Below are positions 7,706 to 34,238 of a DNA stretch of 35,244 nt, piece by piece. Under the pieces are notes generated by a model, which did not search any database, was not told where the DNA came from, and saw only the letters and a program-made list of their open reading frames with translations. This stretch comes from Armatimonadota bacterium (GTDB lineage Bacteria; Vulcanimicrobiota; Xenobia; RGZZ01): positions 1 to 35,244 of the forward strand of contig VGFD01000005.1 of the NCBI GenBank assembly GCA_016868975.1, in the 5' to 3' direction. Both the position numbers and the translations under genes were made by a program. Each line of letters opens with the position of its first letter. Position 1 is the stretch's first letter.

Positions 7706-10700
7706 ATGTCCTGGGTGAGCCTAACCTCGCCTCTCGGAGTGAAGCCGCAGCCGGTGCCCCGTGCGGCGCTAACCTCCGCGCCTCAAGCGATCGCCTCGCG
7801 GGACGCGGTTTCCCTGTCGGCGGCCGCGCTGGCCACGGCGCCGCTTTCCCTGCCGGCCGGAGCGCCGCCCGCGGTGCCCGCCGCGGGAGCCGTTCCCGCC
7901 GCCACCGCGCTGCGCGTGCTCACCGACCTCGAGTCGAAGGGCTGCCGGCTCACCCGCAAGCGCCTGTTCTGGATTCCCGGCTTGATGAGCCGACGCGTGA
8001 AGGTGACGCCCGATGAGTTCCTCAAGCAGCTTAACGAAGGGTCCAACCGCCTTGAAGTGGCCGCCGGCTCCTTCAAGCCCGCGGCGGTACGCGACAGCGA
8101 GGACGTCGCCGCGCTGGACCTGCTGTATCTGGGCGGGACGCCGGGCGCCATTTCCAACGCGCCTGTCCTGGCCGCGCTGCACGCGCTGTATCTTGACGGC
8201 TACGCCTTCTCCCGCGGAAACACCGCGATTGGTCCTTACGGCGCCTGGCGCGGCCTGCGCGACGGGGATGCGAAGGGCGTGGCCCGCAAGCACGGCGAGC
8301 ACGACGTTCCGCTGGCGGCTCCCGAAGATGCCTATCGCGCCGAATTCTTCCGCCTGGGAATCGTGAACCCGGCCTTCGCGAGCGGCGCCGAGGCGCAGAC
8401 CTTGAAGGCGTTGGACGCCCGGCAGGCGGTTTTCTGGAAGAAGCCGGAGGCCGGCGCCCGCCAGGATGCCGAGGCCACCCACAAGCGCCTGTTTGGTGGA
8501 CAAACGTCGTGGATGCCCTCGAGCACGCCGAGCACCGACGTGTGGCTGGGCACGCGCGAGGCGCCGCTCATTCGCATGGATGCCGCCCGGCTGGCCGACA
8601 GCGCGTCGTGCCAGAATGAGTTCGACGCGGCCATGCTGGATTATTCGAGCCTGCTCGCCTGCGGTATCCCGAAGGCGGCAGGTCACGCCGCCTGGGAGGC
8701 CGTGAAGGCTCCGGTCGCTGGCGAGCCGTTCCGCGACCGCGTGCAAGCCATGCGCGGCATTTTTGCGGCCGAGTTCAACGAGGCCGACGACGCGATCGCA
8801 TCGTTTGAGTTTCTGCGCAAGCACATGGCGCCCGGCCAGTCGCTTTCCGACGCCGCGAAGCAGTTCGTGGAAGTGCGCGACGCGCTGGGGCGCAACGGCC
8901 AGACCGTTGCCCGCGACACTTACCTGCGCCTGCGCGACCACCTCGACAAGGCGGTGCCGGGCCCCGAGCCTGCCGCCGACCGCCGCGGCTGGTATTTGCA
9001 GTTGCTCAAGGCCACCGGCGCGCCGAAGGCTTCGGAGCTGGCGTGGAAGGCGCTTGACGGCGCGGCGCCGCGCATCGAGCGGGTGTCGGTTTTCATGGGG
9101 CTGCTGGCCCAGGAAAACAACGCCGTCGACTCGGCTATCAACGATTATCAAACCGTGGCGGCATTGCAGCGTCCCGGCGAGGGTCTCGCCGCCGCGGCCA
9201 CCGCGTTCCGCACCGTGCGCGGCTTTCTGGGCCAGTACGCGAGCGACGATGCGTGCGCCGCGTTCAAGTTCATCCGCACGAAACTTGACAGCAGCCTGCC
9301 GGGCGCGTGGACCACGGCCGAGCGGGAGGAGATGTTCACCCGGCTCCTGCAGACGGTTGGAAAATTTCAGACTGCGCAGGAAACCTGGAAATTCCTGACC
9401 GGCGAGGGCGTGTTCTCCAGCCCGAATCCCCCGACCGATTTCAAGGAGCGGCTGGACGCGCTTCTCTCGCTGTATCGTCTGGAACAGAATAATTTCGAGG
9501 CGGCGCGGGCAGATTACAATTGCGCGCTCAACGCGCGACGCCCAGGCGAGACGGTGGCCGACGTGGTCGCGGAATTCGGCGCGGTGCGCGGCCGCCTGAA
9601 GGCAAATGGCGCGGAGAATGCGCGCGAGGCGTTCGCGTTCTTGCGCGGGGATATCGACGGCACGCTGAGCGGCGCGTTCAAGCCGGAAGAAAAGCGGCGG
9701 ATGTACCTGAAGCTGCTGGGCGCGGTGGAAAATCACGGCCTGTCGGTCAAATACTGGTCGCGTCTTGAGGAGTCCGGTCCGGCCGCGGAATTTCCGCAGC
9801 GCCTGGACACCTTCCTCGAATTGTGCAGCCTCGAGCATCTGGTATTCGAGGAGGCGTGGCTGGCCATGAGCACCCTTGTGGAATTGCGCGCGCCCGGAGA
9901 GAAGCTAGACGACGCGCTGAAGTCCTTCGCCGGCGTGCGCGCGAAAGTGCAGCGGCTGGACGCGGCCGGCGCGCGGGACGCGTTCCGCTACGTCCGCACC
10001 GACCTGCACAAGACGCTGCCCGGCGCGACTGACGCCGAGCGCGAGACGATGTACGGAAAGCTTCTCGGCGCGGTCGGAGATCAGTCGGTTGCGAAAACCG
10101 AGTGGAAGCATCTGGTGGACGCAAGCGCAAAAAATCCCCAGCCGCCGATCGGTGAAGTCGTCGAGGCTTTTGCGAGAGTGTACGTTCTCGATGACAGCAT
10201 TGAGGTCGCCAATAAAGCCGTCGAGGCGATTTCTTCGGTGGCGCGCACCCAGAAGCAGCCGGTCGCCGCGCTGGTGAGCGACTATGTCGCGCTGCGCAAG
10301 CTGGTCAGCCCGTACAACGGCTTCCACGGCGTGTCGCTGTTCAAGTTCGTGCATGAGCAGGTTCCCGCGCCGCAGCGCCAGATTTACGTGCGGCTGCAAG
10401 AGGCCTGTCTTGACTTCACGGTTGCGCAGTCGCTGTGGGAAACCCTTAACGAAACTCCCACGGATCTCTTTGAGCGCACTGACGTTCTCGTCGATTGCCT
10501 GAAAAAAGAACATCGCCGCGTGGACGTGGCCCGCTTCCAGCTTGACGCGGTGCTCTCGCACCGCCACTCCGGCGAGACCATCACCGCGGCTGCCCGCGCG
10601 CTCGACAACCTGCGCAACGCGCTGCCGTTGTGGGACGGTCTTTTGGTGGCTTCCGCCTTCAAGTTCGTGCGGGAGCGCGCATCGGCCACGCAAGAGGCGA

Positions 10701-11587
10701 TGTGCGTAAATCTCCTCAAAACCACGCAGTCGCTGGAGTGGGCGACGTCCGTGTGGGATTCAGTCGAGGCCGCCGGCCCGGATACCCAGTTCGATCTCCG
10801 CATGGGCACGCTGCTCAAGCAGCCGGTCGAAAAGTGGGAAGCCATCGTGAGCCGTATGAAAAGCCTGCCCAAATCCGTCCCTAAAGGCGTGGACGCGGAT
10901 CGGGGCGTGCGGGCGCTCTTCCGCCTGGTGACGGTGGACGATTCCGGCGCGCTCAGCGCTGTGCTGGCGCGGCTGGACGCCACGCCCGGCCTGGACCGGA
11001 CGCTGGCCATCGAGTGGCTGTGCGCGATGATGGAGCAGGCCGGCTCGGTGGAAGCCTTCGAACAGGGCTGGCGCGACGTGCACCGTCCGGGTGCTTCGGG
11101 CACGGTGGCCGAGCGGCAGCTGCTGATGGCCAACCTGGTGGAAGCCACCCGGCGCTCGCCCGGCGGCTACACTTCGTCGGTGGAGATTCTGCGGCGCCTG
11201 GACCGCCTGCCGGCGGCGGAATTCATGCCGGCGGCGCAGCAGGCGGTGGCGCTGACTTCCGCGATGCAGGGGCGGGCCGCGGATGCCTCGCAGGCCCTCG
11301 TCTACATTCTCGACGCGCGCGAGCAGGGCCGCTTCAGCACCGAGACGCTGGAAGACACGGTGAACCGCTTTGCCACGCTGTACGCGACGACGAATTCCCT
11401 GGAGATGGCGCTGGCCCGCCTGGAGCAGGGGACCGCCCCGTCCAACGGCGGCATCCAGGACAAAGACGGCGACCTCATTATCGGCGGGATCCGCGTCCCG
11501 CGCGGCCAGAAAAAGCCGCCGCCGGCCCCGCCGAGCTTCATCATGAAGGCATGGGAAGAGCTTCGCAAGCGCTTCTGGATGGAGTGA
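7706..11587 (+). CDS. Large uncharacterised protein with about six degenerate ~115 aa tandem repeats
   Basis: ORF 7649..11587, likely ATG at 7706 after GGAGA (about 1293 aa). Recurrent block: F..RLD.L..L..LE...FE.A...........PGE....A...F..VR..L...GA..AF.F.R..LD..LPGA..AER..MY..LL.AVG....A...W..L. Confidence 0.9.
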   Translation: MSWVSLTSPLGVKPQPVPRAALTSAPQAIASRDAVSLSAAALATAPLSLPAGAPPAVPAAGAVPAATALRVLTDLESKGCRLTRKRLFWIPGLMSRRVKVTPDEFLKQLNEGSNRLEVAAGSFKPAAVRDSEDVAALDLLYLGGTPGAISNAPVLAALHALYLDGYAFSRGNTAIGPYGAWRGLRDGDAKGVARKHGEHDVPLAAPEDAYRAEFFRLGIVNPAFASGAEAQTLKALDARQAVFWKKPEAGARQDAEATHKRLFGGQTSWMPSSTPSTDVWLGTREAPLIRMDAARLADSASCQNEFDAAMLDYSSLLACGIPKAAGHAAWEAVKAPVAGEPFRDRVQAMRGIFAAEFNEADDAIASFEFLRKHMAPGQSLSDAAKQFVEVRDALGRNGQTVARDTYLRLRDHLDKAVPGPEPAADRRGWYLQLLKATGAPKASELAWKALDGAAPRIERVSVFMGLLAQENNAVDSAINDYQTVAALQRPGEGLAAAATAFRTVRGFLGQYASDDACAAFKFIRTKLDSSLPGAWTTAEREEMFTRLLQTVGKFQTAQETWKFLTGEGVFSSPNPPTDFKERLDALLSLYRLEQNNFEAARADYNCALNARRPGETVADVVAEFGAVRGRLKANGAENAREAFAFLRGDIDGTLSGAFKPEEKRRMYLKLLGAVENHGLSVKYWSRLEESGPAAEFPQRLDTFLELCSLEHLVFEEAWLAMSTLVELRAPGEKLDDALKSFAGVRAKVQRLDAAGARDAFRYVRTDLHKTLPGATDAERETMYGKLLGAVGDQSVAKTEWKHLVDASAKNPQPPIGEVVEAFARVYVLDDSIEVANKAVEAISSVARTQKQPVAALVSDYVALRKLVSPYNGFHGVSLFKFVHEQVPAPQRQIYVRLQEACLDFTVAQSLWETLNETPTDLFERTDVLVDCLKKEHRRVDVARFQLDAVLSHRHSGETITAAARALDNLRNALPLWDGLLVASAFKFVRERASATQEAMCVNLLKTTQSLEWATSVWDSVEAAGPDTQFDLRMGTLLKQPVEKWEAIVSRMKSLPKSVPKGVDADRGVRALFRLVTVDDSGALSAVLARLDATPGLDRTLAIEWLCAMMEQAGSVEAFEQGWRDVHRPGASGTVAERQLLMANLVEATRRSPGGYTSSVEILRRLDRLPAAEFMPAAQQAVALTSAMQGRAADASQALVYILDAREQGRFSTETLEDTVNRFATLYATTNSLEMALARLEQGTAPSNGGIQDKDGDLIIGGIRVPRGQKKPPPAPPSFIMKAWEELRKRFWME

Positions 11588-11653: not shown

Positions 11654-11806
11654 ATGGCGGAAACGACTACCAACCAGCGCGACTTCAATGCGTTCTTGAT
11701 CATGGGGGCAGGGCTGTTCAGCACCATCCTCGGCATCGTCGTTGTCGGAGAAATCGTAAGCGCCATCTTCCACGCTTTCCAGGGGGGCGGAACACCGGCG
11801 CACTAG
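11654..11806 (+). CDS. Small single-pass membrane protein (50 aa)
   Basis: MAETTTNQRDFNAFLIMGAGLFSTILGIVVVGEIVSAIFHAFQGGGTPAH*; upstream GGAGG at 11637-11641. Below the length threshold of the ORF track. Confidence 0.6.
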   Translation: MAETTTNQRDFNAFLIMGAGLFSTILGIVVVGEIVSAIFHAFQGGGTPAH

Positions 11807-11812
11807 CCTGCG

Positions 11813-11933
11813 CTGTGGATAACTCAGCGGCCCACTCGACGAGCCCGCTTCACCGGTCCCGACAGGAGTTCTGACACGCGGACCGACTTCCACCCGGTGA
11901 CAGACTGTGGATAACATGCCAGGTTATCCACAG
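11813..11933. promoter_or_regulatory. Cluster of three perfect DnaA-box sequences
   Basis: TGTGGATAA at 11814-11822 and 11906-11914; TTATCCACA at 11924-11932. The last two form an 11 bp inverted repeat, CTGTGGATAAC-ATGCCAG-GTTATCCACAG. Confidence 0.6.
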
Positions 11934-11954
11934 CTTTTGCGTTCCGTGGAGAAC

Positions 11955-11980
11955 GAAAAAGAAGACCCCTGGGGGTCTTC
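11955..11980 (-). terminator. Intrinsic terminator of the clostripain-like gene
   Basis: Hairpin with 9 bp arms GAAGACCCC..GGGGTCTTC (11961-11980), followed on the minus strand by TTTTTC. Confidence 0.85.
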
Positions 11981-11997
11981 CTTCGGCAGGCCCAAAC

Positions 11998-13983
11998 CTA
12001 CTTGTCCCAGACCTGGTTCTTGCCGATCATCTGCTGAACCGCCAGCACCGCCGCGTCGCCCTTCGTGCCCTCGTTGAGCGCGATGGAGTCGCGGATGGCC
12101 TTGTACTGCATGAAGTACTCGTAGGCGTTCTTGATCCACGGCTTGGCGAAGCCGAAGATACCCGCGGCGTACGCAAAGGGCACCAGCTGCGGCTGGACCA
12201 GCGCGACGCACGCGGCGGCCTTGGCGGCGCCGCCGATGACGTCGAGCCCGTTGTAGATGATCGCGTCGTAGGATTTGGAATCCTTGAACTGCGCGGTGGC
12301 GGCCTTCACGCCGTTGTACATGTCGTAGAGGCCGCCGTAGGCGCCCACGTAGGCGGCCGCGGTCGCAGGCAGGAAGAGGAAGCGGCCCGGACGCCCGCTC
12401 TGCAGGACGTTGAACGACTCCCACCAGCCGATGGTGGAGGCCCACCCGGAGTACGACCGCACCGTCGGATCCAGCGAGCGCTTGAAGCCCACCAGGCCGT
12501 CGACCGTCTTCTGGCCGAGAACCTTGTTGGCCATGCCGCCGGAGAAGGAGTCCTCGGACACCGACTCCAGGAACTTCGACCAGGAGTTGTTCTGGTTGAA
12601 GGACAGCTTCTCGTAGCCGAACTTGTGGTCCCACTTGTTGTCCACCGGGAACGAGTCGGGGCGGATGAAGCCGTAGTTGTCCGGCAGGAACATGGAAATG
12701 CCGTTGGCGTTTCGGTACGGTCCACCGCGGTGCGCCTCGCCGACCATCGCGCCCTCGACTGAGTCCATCACCTTCTGCGCGGCGGTCTTGACGGCCGCGT
12801 CGGTGATGTCCTTGTCGCGCGAGATCAGCTTTGCGAAGTGGAACACGTCGCGGACGCCCTCATACGCGCGGGTGACGCCCGGCATGGCGACTTCCTGGGT
12901 GTTGGCCATCAGCTCGCGCAGGTGCGCCTTGTCTATCTTGGCCTTGAGCAGCGCCTCGCCGAGGTCGTTGATGGAATCCTTGATTGCGCCCACCTTCGAC
13001 ATGTCGACCGCCGAGATGGTGGGCGCGAAGCCCTGGGCGGACACCGCCATGGAGCCGACCATGGTGAAGGTCTGGGCGACCTCTTCGGGCGTGCGCACCA
13101 CGTCGAGGTTGCTCTTCTTCAGCTCGTACACCACGCTGGGCACCGACATGCCGGCGCCGGCCACGAGGCCCTCGCTGCCGACCACGTAGTTCACGTGATC
13201 CTTGATCTCGTGGAGCAGCTCGATCTGGGTCGAGTTGGAAGCGTCAAAGGCCAGGACGTCGACTTTCTTGCCGGTGTCTTTCTCCACGGTCGCCAGCGCG
13301 CTGGCGAGCTGCTGTGGGGACATCTGCTTGCCGCTGGTGTCGTCCTTCATGATGCCGTTCATGCCCTGGGACGGGCCGAGCATCACGACGCAGTAGTGCT
13401 CCGCGGGGTACTTGTTCATGCCCCACTTCACGAAGTCGGACAGGGTGCGGGGATTGGCCATGTCGGCCTCGCCCAGGTCCTGCTTCATCTCCGACTTGAT
13501 GCCGCGGGTGTAGGGCGGCACGAGCTGGCGGAAGATCTCGCCGATGAGCTCGCCCTGGCTCAATTCCTTGTCGGTCTCGGGGACTTCGTAGCGGCGCACG
13601 CCCGACCAGTCGCGGGTGATCATGTCCAGGGTGCCCTTCTGGCGGGCGACCTGGGCCGCGATGTTGATGTTGTCGTCGGAGCCGGCGAACTCCAGCATGC
13701 GGAGCTGGCTGGGGGCCTGCTTGGCCAGAAAGTTGTTGCCGTTGATGTAGAAGAGGAAGGTCCACTTCTTCGGCTGCGCGGGATTGGTGGCCGTTGCAGG
13801 GGTAACGGCGGTCTGCGCAGCCGGCTGCTGCGGCGCCGGCCTGGGCTTCTCCGTCCCGGCGATGTCCGCGCGGTCCACAATCGTGGGGGCGGCGTTCGAG
13901 GGCGTGGTGAGGACCACGTCTCCAGCGAGATCTTTGACCGAGCGGCCAAACTTGATGCCGGTGAGTCCTGCGACCGAATCCAT
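11998..13983 (-). CDS. Clostripain-like (peptidase C11 fold) protein, predicted catalytically inactive
   Basis: KKWTFLFYINGNNFL...MLEFAGSDDNINIAAQVARQKG...LSDFVKWGMNKYPAEHYCVVMLGPSQGMNG...VDVLAFDASNSTQIELLHEI matches the C11 scaffold. Expected His (wgHGgG) reads GPSQG and expected Cys (fDaClM) reads FDASNS. C-terminal hydrophobic segments. Alternative in-frame start at 14022. Confidence 0.75.
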   Translation of the reverse strand: MDSVAGLTGIKFGRSVKDLAGDVVLTTPSNAAPTIVDRADIAGTEKPRPAPQQPAAQTAVTPATATNPAQPKKWTFLFYINGNNFLAKQAPSQLRMLEFAGSDDNINIAAQVARQKGTLDMITRDWSGVRRYEVPETDKELSQGELIGEIFRQLVPPYTRGIKSEMKQDLGEADMANPRTLSDFVKWGMNKYPAEHYCVVMLGPSQGMNGIMKDDTSGKQMSPQQLASALATVEKDTGKKVDVLAFDASNSTQIELLHEIKDHVNYVVGSEGLVAGAGMSVPSVVYELKKSNLDVVRTPEEVAQTFTMVGSMAVSAQGFAPTISAVDMSKVGAIKDSINDLGEALLKAKIDKAHLRELMANTQEVAMPGVTRAYEGVRDVFHFAKLISRDKDITDAAVKTAAQKVMDSVEGAMVGEAHRGGPYRNANGISMFLPDNYGFIRPDSFPVDNKWDHKFGYEKLSFNQNNSWSKFLESVSEDSFSGGMANKVLGQKTVDGLVGFKRSLDPTVRSYSGWASTIGWWESFNVLQSGRPGRFLFLPATAAAYVGAYGGLYDMYNGVKAATAQFKDSKSYDAIIYNGLDVIGGAAKAAACVALVQPQLVPFAYAAGIFGFAKPWIKNAYEYFMQYKAIRDSIALNEGTKGDAAVLAVQQMIGKNQVWDK

Positions 13984-14047
13984 GAGACACACTCTCCTGG
14001 GCCGATTAGTCCCGCAGGGCATGAGACACCCTCTCGGACTTTCCACT

Positions 14048-14077
14048 AGTGTAGTGCCCGCGCGTCCGGCCAATCAA
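14048..14077 (-). promoter_or_regulatory. Candidate promoter of the clostripain-like gene
   Basis: Minus strand TTGATT (14077-14072), 18 nt spacer, TACACT (14053-14048), about 30 nt upstream of the first of two in-frame starts. Confidence 0.5.
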
Positions 14078-33697: not shown

Positions 33698-33772
33698 TGG
33701 TAGGCCGCCCAGGTATCGAACCTGGGACACCCTGATTAAAAGTCAGGTGCTCTACCACTGAGCTAGCGGCCC
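33698..33772 (-). tRNA. tRNA-Lys(TTT), CCA encoded
   Basis: GGGCCGC...CTGACTTTTAATCAG...CCAGGTTCGATACCTGG GCGGCCT A CCA; full cloverleaf. Confidence 0.95.
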
Positions 33773-33789
33773 GTTTATGAGGTTCTGGT

Positions 33790-33862
33790 CGCGCCCAGAG
33801 GGACTCGAACCCCCAACACCCAGCTCCGAAGGCTGGTGCTCTATCCATTGAGCTATGGGCGC
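33790..33862 (-). tRNA. tRNA-Arg(TCG)
   Basis: GCGCCCA...CCAGC CTTCGGA GCTGG...GGGGGTTCGAGTCCCTC TGGGCGC G. Confidence 0.93.
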
Positions 33863-33892
33863 ATGTGCCCGGTCCAGCCGAGCCCATTTGTT

Positions 33893-33931
33893 AAAACGGG
33901 ACTGCCGTTGCCTGCAGTCCCGCACGTTTTT
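33893..33931. terminator. Terminator-like hairpin inside the tRNA cluster
   Basis: CGGGACTGC-N8-GCAGTCCCG (33897-33922); TTTT follows on the minus strand and CACGTTTTT on the plus strand. Confidence 0.6.
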
Positions 33932-33936
33932 GGTGG

Positions 33937-34010
33937 GGTGAGTGAGGGGACTTGAACCCCCGACCCCTGGTTCCACAGACCAGTGCTCTAACCACTGAGC
34001 TACACTCACC
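33937..34010 (-). tRNA. tRNA-His(GTG)
   Basis: G(-1) GTGAGTG...CTGGT CTGTGGA ACCAG...GGGGGTTCAAGTCCCCT CACTCAC C. Confidence 0.94.
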
Positions 34011-34047
34011 ATGTTCCCGTCGCAGCGCGGGCGTGACGGGGAGTTGG

Positions 34048-34120
34048 CACGCCCGAAGGGAATCGAACCCCCAACCCTCGGCTTAGAAGGCCGATGCTCT
34101 GTCCGTTGAGCTACGGGCGC
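34048..34120 (-). tRNA. tRNA-Arg(TCT)
   Basis: GCGCCCG...TCGGC CTTCTAA GCCGA...GGGGGTTCGATTCCCTT CGGGCGT G. Confidence 0.93.
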
Positions 34121-34161
34121 ACGTAAGATTCGATTCTCTTCGACGATGACGCCGAGGATCA

Positions 34162-34238
<77 letters not shown>

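Follow-up and report, generated by a model that had tools for sequence, protein, structure and literature searches.

DnaA is the initiator protein of chromosome replication. DnaA-box groups away from the origin include the extra-oriC DnaA-box clusters (DBCs) of Bacillus subtilis, which have been proposed to hold free DnaA (PMC5295017). In Escherichia coli, the datA core is located downstream of its neighbouring genes, and the cores of DARS1 and DARS2 contain three boxes, one of which is oriented opposite to the other two (PMC5742627). The E. coli DnaA protein binds mainly to box pairs spaced 2-3 bp apart, and a double box is a far better predictor of binding than a single box (PMC11317965). 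DnaA roadblock termination has also been described for E. coli (PMC11317965), and the asnC terminator is cited in the same paper as a case in which DnaA boxes at a gene end can stop transcription.

Here, we describe three perfect DnaA boxes in the gap between the ends of two genes of an uncultured bacterium. The gap is part of contig C5 of a draft genome (6.1 Mb in 956 contigs, 93% completeness, 8.4% contamination), and the full 35,244 nucleotides of this contig are referred to as the window. We estimate a probability of about 0.5 that these boxes represent an extra-oriC DnaA-box cluster whose role is that of a passive sink for DnaA and perhaps also of a transcription block.

Results

The perfect DnaA box TTATCCACA occurs in the window at positions 11814..11822 (-), 11906..11914 (-) and 11924..11932 (+), and these are the only perfect matches to TTATNCACA in the window. 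Rechecking of the positions confirmed the three exact copies listed in the first-pass annotation, as well as the 11-mer CTGTGGATAAC that encloses each of them; the box at 11814 is located within the 12-mer GTTATCCACAGC. The boxes at 11906 and 11924 form the left and right arms of an inverted pair with a gap of 9 bp, as previously noted, but the pair had been called convergent, whereas it is the 5' ends that face each other and the boxes that read outward. Being a perfect inverted repeat, the pair may contain two copies that did not arise independently. The distance from the second box to the copy at 11814 is 83 bp.

The first-pass annotation assumed a chance rate of one site per 130 kb, which presumes a GC content of 50% and is too high for a GC-rich genome. 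Its conclusion that the cluster is not due to chance nevertheless holds. In random-placement trials, 29 sites placed in the intergenic space produced a triple as tight as this one in about 1 in 20,000 trials. Perfect boxes are nowhere denser in the 6.1-Mb draft genome than here, and no second spot has three perfect copies so close together. A common interspersed repeat had been named as a finding that would overturn the interpretation; CTGTGGATAAC is not such a repeat, because it is present in only seven copies in the genome, three of which are located here. No second copy of the 196-bp stretch was found in a search of this genome and four relatives. We also considered a mobile element with 12-bp ends (11812-11823 / 11923-11934), which was rejected since no second copy was identified in the five genomes and no target duplication was evident by eye.

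The cluster is flanked by converging gene ends. To the left is a gene for a predicted membrane peptide of 50 amino acids (11654..11806, +), preceded by a gene for a protein of 1293 amino acids (7706..11587, +), neither of which has a Pfam match, and to the right is a gene for a Clostripain-family (Peptidase_C11) protein (11998..14073, -). Clostripain-like proteins are numerous, with 15 matches in this genome and up to 22 in a relative. A cluster of five tRNA genes (Lys, Arg, His, Arg, Pro) was observed elsewhere in the window, at 33698-34238 (-). The inverted pair is part of an inverted repeat (11905..11933, +) with an 11-bp stem and a 7-nt loop followed by CTTTTG, which could form a terminator-like fold, and a separate hairpin with a T-run (11958..11985, -) is located just beyond the end of the protease gene.

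A scan identified no promoter-like site at the cluster, and the flanking genes are convergent, which speaks against the DnaA-controlled promoter suggested in the first-pass annotation. Potential tandem partners of the three boxes do not rise above background (3-4 of 8 matches at best), and no match to the IHF consensus WATCAANNNNTTR was found in 11701-12050. The boxes begin 65 bp past the protease stop codon; the protease has a single close orthologue, in a sister genus (63-65% identity), and this one reaches the contig edge 68 bp past its stop codon. No box was found within 700 bp past the stop codon of the orthologues in class-level relatives (34-39% identity).

The perfect boxes in the cluster belong to a larger set. 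The genome contains 32 copies of TTATCCACA, as compared to 13 of the reversed pattern and about 10 expected per 6.1 Mb from composition-matched 9-mers. With genes called by a simple codon-usage gene finder written for the analysis, 29 of the 32 boxes are intergenic, whereas copies of composition-matched 9-mers in these loci are mostly (70%) located within genes (binomial P ~1e-12). Half of the boxes (16/32) have a tandem partner on the same strand (6/8 matches or more, at a distance of 1-4 bp), versus 2.7% in shuffled flanks, a layout that resembles the 2-3 bp pairs preferred by the E. coli DnaA protein (PMC11317965). The identification of TTATCCACA as a DnaA box is thus backed by intergenic placement, tandem architecture and a DnaA protein with the box-reading motif DHTTVIHA. 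Judging from these sequence patterns, we regard the perfect boxes of this genome as real sites and the 9-mer as strongly selected between genes.

According to the NCBIfam gene names, perfect boxes are located upstream of ftsZ (between ftsA and ftsZ), a second ftsZ gene, uvrA (between uvrB and uvrA), a parE-like gene and rplI, the latter followed by a gene that we take to be DnaB-like from its sequence start. Other boxes are found upstream of a ThiS-family gene that precedes a gene judged by eye to be dcd-like, next to a dnaA paralogue, at the loci of the RNA family described below, and upstream of HNH genes. The ftsZ gene is present twice in the genome (contigs C4 and C13), each copy preceded by a box, and two HNH-domain genes, L025:3904-5364(-) and L042:1-1296(-), which appear related by eye, each have a perfect box upstream. 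The sister genus G002 carries the boxes at oriC, rplI and the RNA promoters, and its inverted perfect-box pairs are located in the dnaA-rpmH region and before rplI. Nothing comparable to the ftsZ boxes (two sister genera) and the uvrA box (one genus) was found except for a single weak 6/8 match, and part of the box set is therefore lineage-specific.

Three DnaA-like genes were identified per genome, on C237/C558, C136 and C13 in this genome (G000) and on C11, C44 and C233 in G002. In two of the three, the box-reading motif is altered (GGKDYSSVRHA and GANPNQVRYA are examples). Contamination is an unlikely source of the extra genes because the sister genus likewise carries three.

A multicopy family of structured non-coding RNAs with no match in Rfam was also observed. 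Its members measure about 350-420 nt, have a 3' end that resembles a terminator and show compensatory changes by eye. The model of this family, R1, identified five copies in this genome (L021:8975-9383(+), L022:3264-3674(-), L027:6727-7196(-), L030:892-1308(+), L036:5729-6192(+)) and three in the sister genus (L078:1763-2169(+), L202, L207), with no convincing match elsewhere among the 58 genomes. In both genera, the promoters of the family have a perfect DnaA box 31 bp upstream of a TTGAC -35 motif, and the interval contains weaker repeats that resemble the box, spaced by about 10 bp, which suggests that the family may be under DnaA control. The cluster in the window was also considered as a remnant of this family and rejected, as the -35 motif is missing and R1 matches nothing in the window.

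Discussion

We favor the hypothesis that the three boxes form an extra-oriC DnaA-box cluster, that is, several close consensus boxes located outside oriC. This interpretation builds on the intergenic bias and the tandem layout of the perfect boxes in the genome, their location before ftsZ, uvrA, the parE-like gene and rplI-dnaB, the inverted pairs in the sister genus, and the finding that this is the densest set. Precedents from E. coli, namely the downstream position of the datA core and the roadblock termination by DnaA, also speak for it. Against it are the absence of tandem partners at all three boxes, the absence of an IHF consensus and the lack of boxes in the 700 bp in class-level relatives. 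The cluster is also unlike the boxes upstream of genes in that it is located between convergent genes and has neither a promoter nor tandem partners. According to the proposed mechanism, DnaA would bind to the three high-affinity boxes and the site would therefore act as a passive sink that retains a small number of DnaA molecules at a distance from oriC; located just beyond two gene ends, it may also halt RNA polymerase leaving either gene. A role in DnaA titration or reactivation is possible.

The main rival, and a live one although we hold it to be unlikely, is that the inverted pair is a plain intrinsic terminator of the plus-strand genes, a caveat raised already in the first-pass annotation, with a stem whose match to the DnaA box is due to chance or descent, DnaA having no part in it. 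The stem is perfect over 11 bp, its folding energy is beyond that of shuffled sequences (z -3.2), and it is the sole terminator-like site in the region in a consensus scan, for which 0.7 sites were expected by chance; moreover, the plus-strand gene has no better hairpin, while the minus-strand gene has its own. By the criteria of our analysis, T-tailed hairpins are present at just 10 of the 84 convergent gene ends, which speaks against this reading, but a terminator role is possible since both ends at this locus are among the ten. However, the T-run is short (CTTTTG), only 5/11 stem positions are GC, and a terminator explains neither the identity of the stem to a 9-mer strongly selected between genes nor, as previously pointed out, the perfect copy at 11814, which is outside the stem. 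The inverted perfect-box pairs in the origin region and before rplI in the sister genus favor binding by DnaA, and neither reading excludes the other. We think it rather improbable that a regulatory site once existed here and that the boxes are its neutral relic, without function today. Boxes do turn over, as indicated by the sister genera, which lack those at ftsZ and uvrA, and by the total of only nine perfect boxes in G002, and the cluster lacks a promoter and tandem partners, but all three boxes are perfect and no decayed near-miss boxes were seen around them.

Slightly less probable still is that a different protein, such as a DnaA paralogue, reads the 9-mer at this site. Two additional DnaA-like genes with altered box-reading motifs are indeed present, also in the sister genus, but the 9-mer occurs in the dnaA-rpmH origin region as well and the main DnaA protein retains DHTTVIHA. 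The first-pass annotation also listed oriC as an option, and three perfect boxes within 120 bp would be in line with an origin. We reject this reading as hardly credible, because an origin region with dnaA, dnaN, rpmH, six boxes and an AT-rich stretch was found elsewhere, and the first-pass annotation was right to place the cluster away from dnaA and dnaN. Contig C237 contains the start of dnaA, an intergenic region with six boxes (at least 7/8 matches) and the AT-rich stretch, followed by rpmH, rnpA, yidD and yidC, while C558 contains the 3' part of a dnaA gene (with DHTTVIHA) and dnaN. The two contigs would join in the order dnaN-dnaA/boxes/rpmH-rnpA-yidD-yidC, with a piece of dnaA missing between them; we take these gene names from matches to the DnaA family and our reading of the translations. 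In the sister genus, dnaN, dnaA, the boxes and rpmH are all located on a single contig. Nor is there a GC-skew switch at the cluster, the skew being positive from 1 to about 15 kb in the 35-kb window, and there is no AT-rich unwinding stretch beside the boxes: the intergenic GC content is 60% and the nearest AT-rich 30-mer is found some 200 bp off, on the far side of the small ORF.

If DnaA binds to the cluster, the concept of extra-oriC DnaA clusters would reach a phylum of which hardly any members have been cultured. The box map also represents a candidate DnaA regulon that is open to testing and contains an RNA family with boxes adjoining the -35 motif. More speculatively, and in our view doubtful, DnaA could be a broad cell-cycle regulator in this lineage, with boxes at oriC, rplI-dnaB, ftsZ, uvrA and the parE-like gene and a new RNA family under its drive, for which the cluster described here would be a dedicated non-promoter sink.

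The comparison with known systems reveals partial similarities to several of them. Like datA in E. coli, the cluster comprises several boxes of high affinity that are located between genes, downstream of the neighbouring ones (PMC5742627), but datA requires an IHF site between the boxes, to which no consensus match was found here. DARS sites are characterised by ADP release from DnaA and by a core of three boxes at conserved spacing, with box I opposite to II and III. The orientation fits the core of DARS1 and DARS2, with one of three boxes opposite to the others, although the IHF consensus is again missing and the third box is 83 bp from the second. As at asnC, DnaA boxes are located at a gene end, but here an intrinsic hairpin overlaps with the boxes and termination is putative. 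Six clusters act jointly in B. subtilis; what they share with the putative cluster described here is the grouping of boxes away from oriC. In a genome with further boxes at genes for division, repair and RNA, the most likely reading of the locus is that of an additional DnaA-binding site of the ordinary type, a probable cluster of a known kind.
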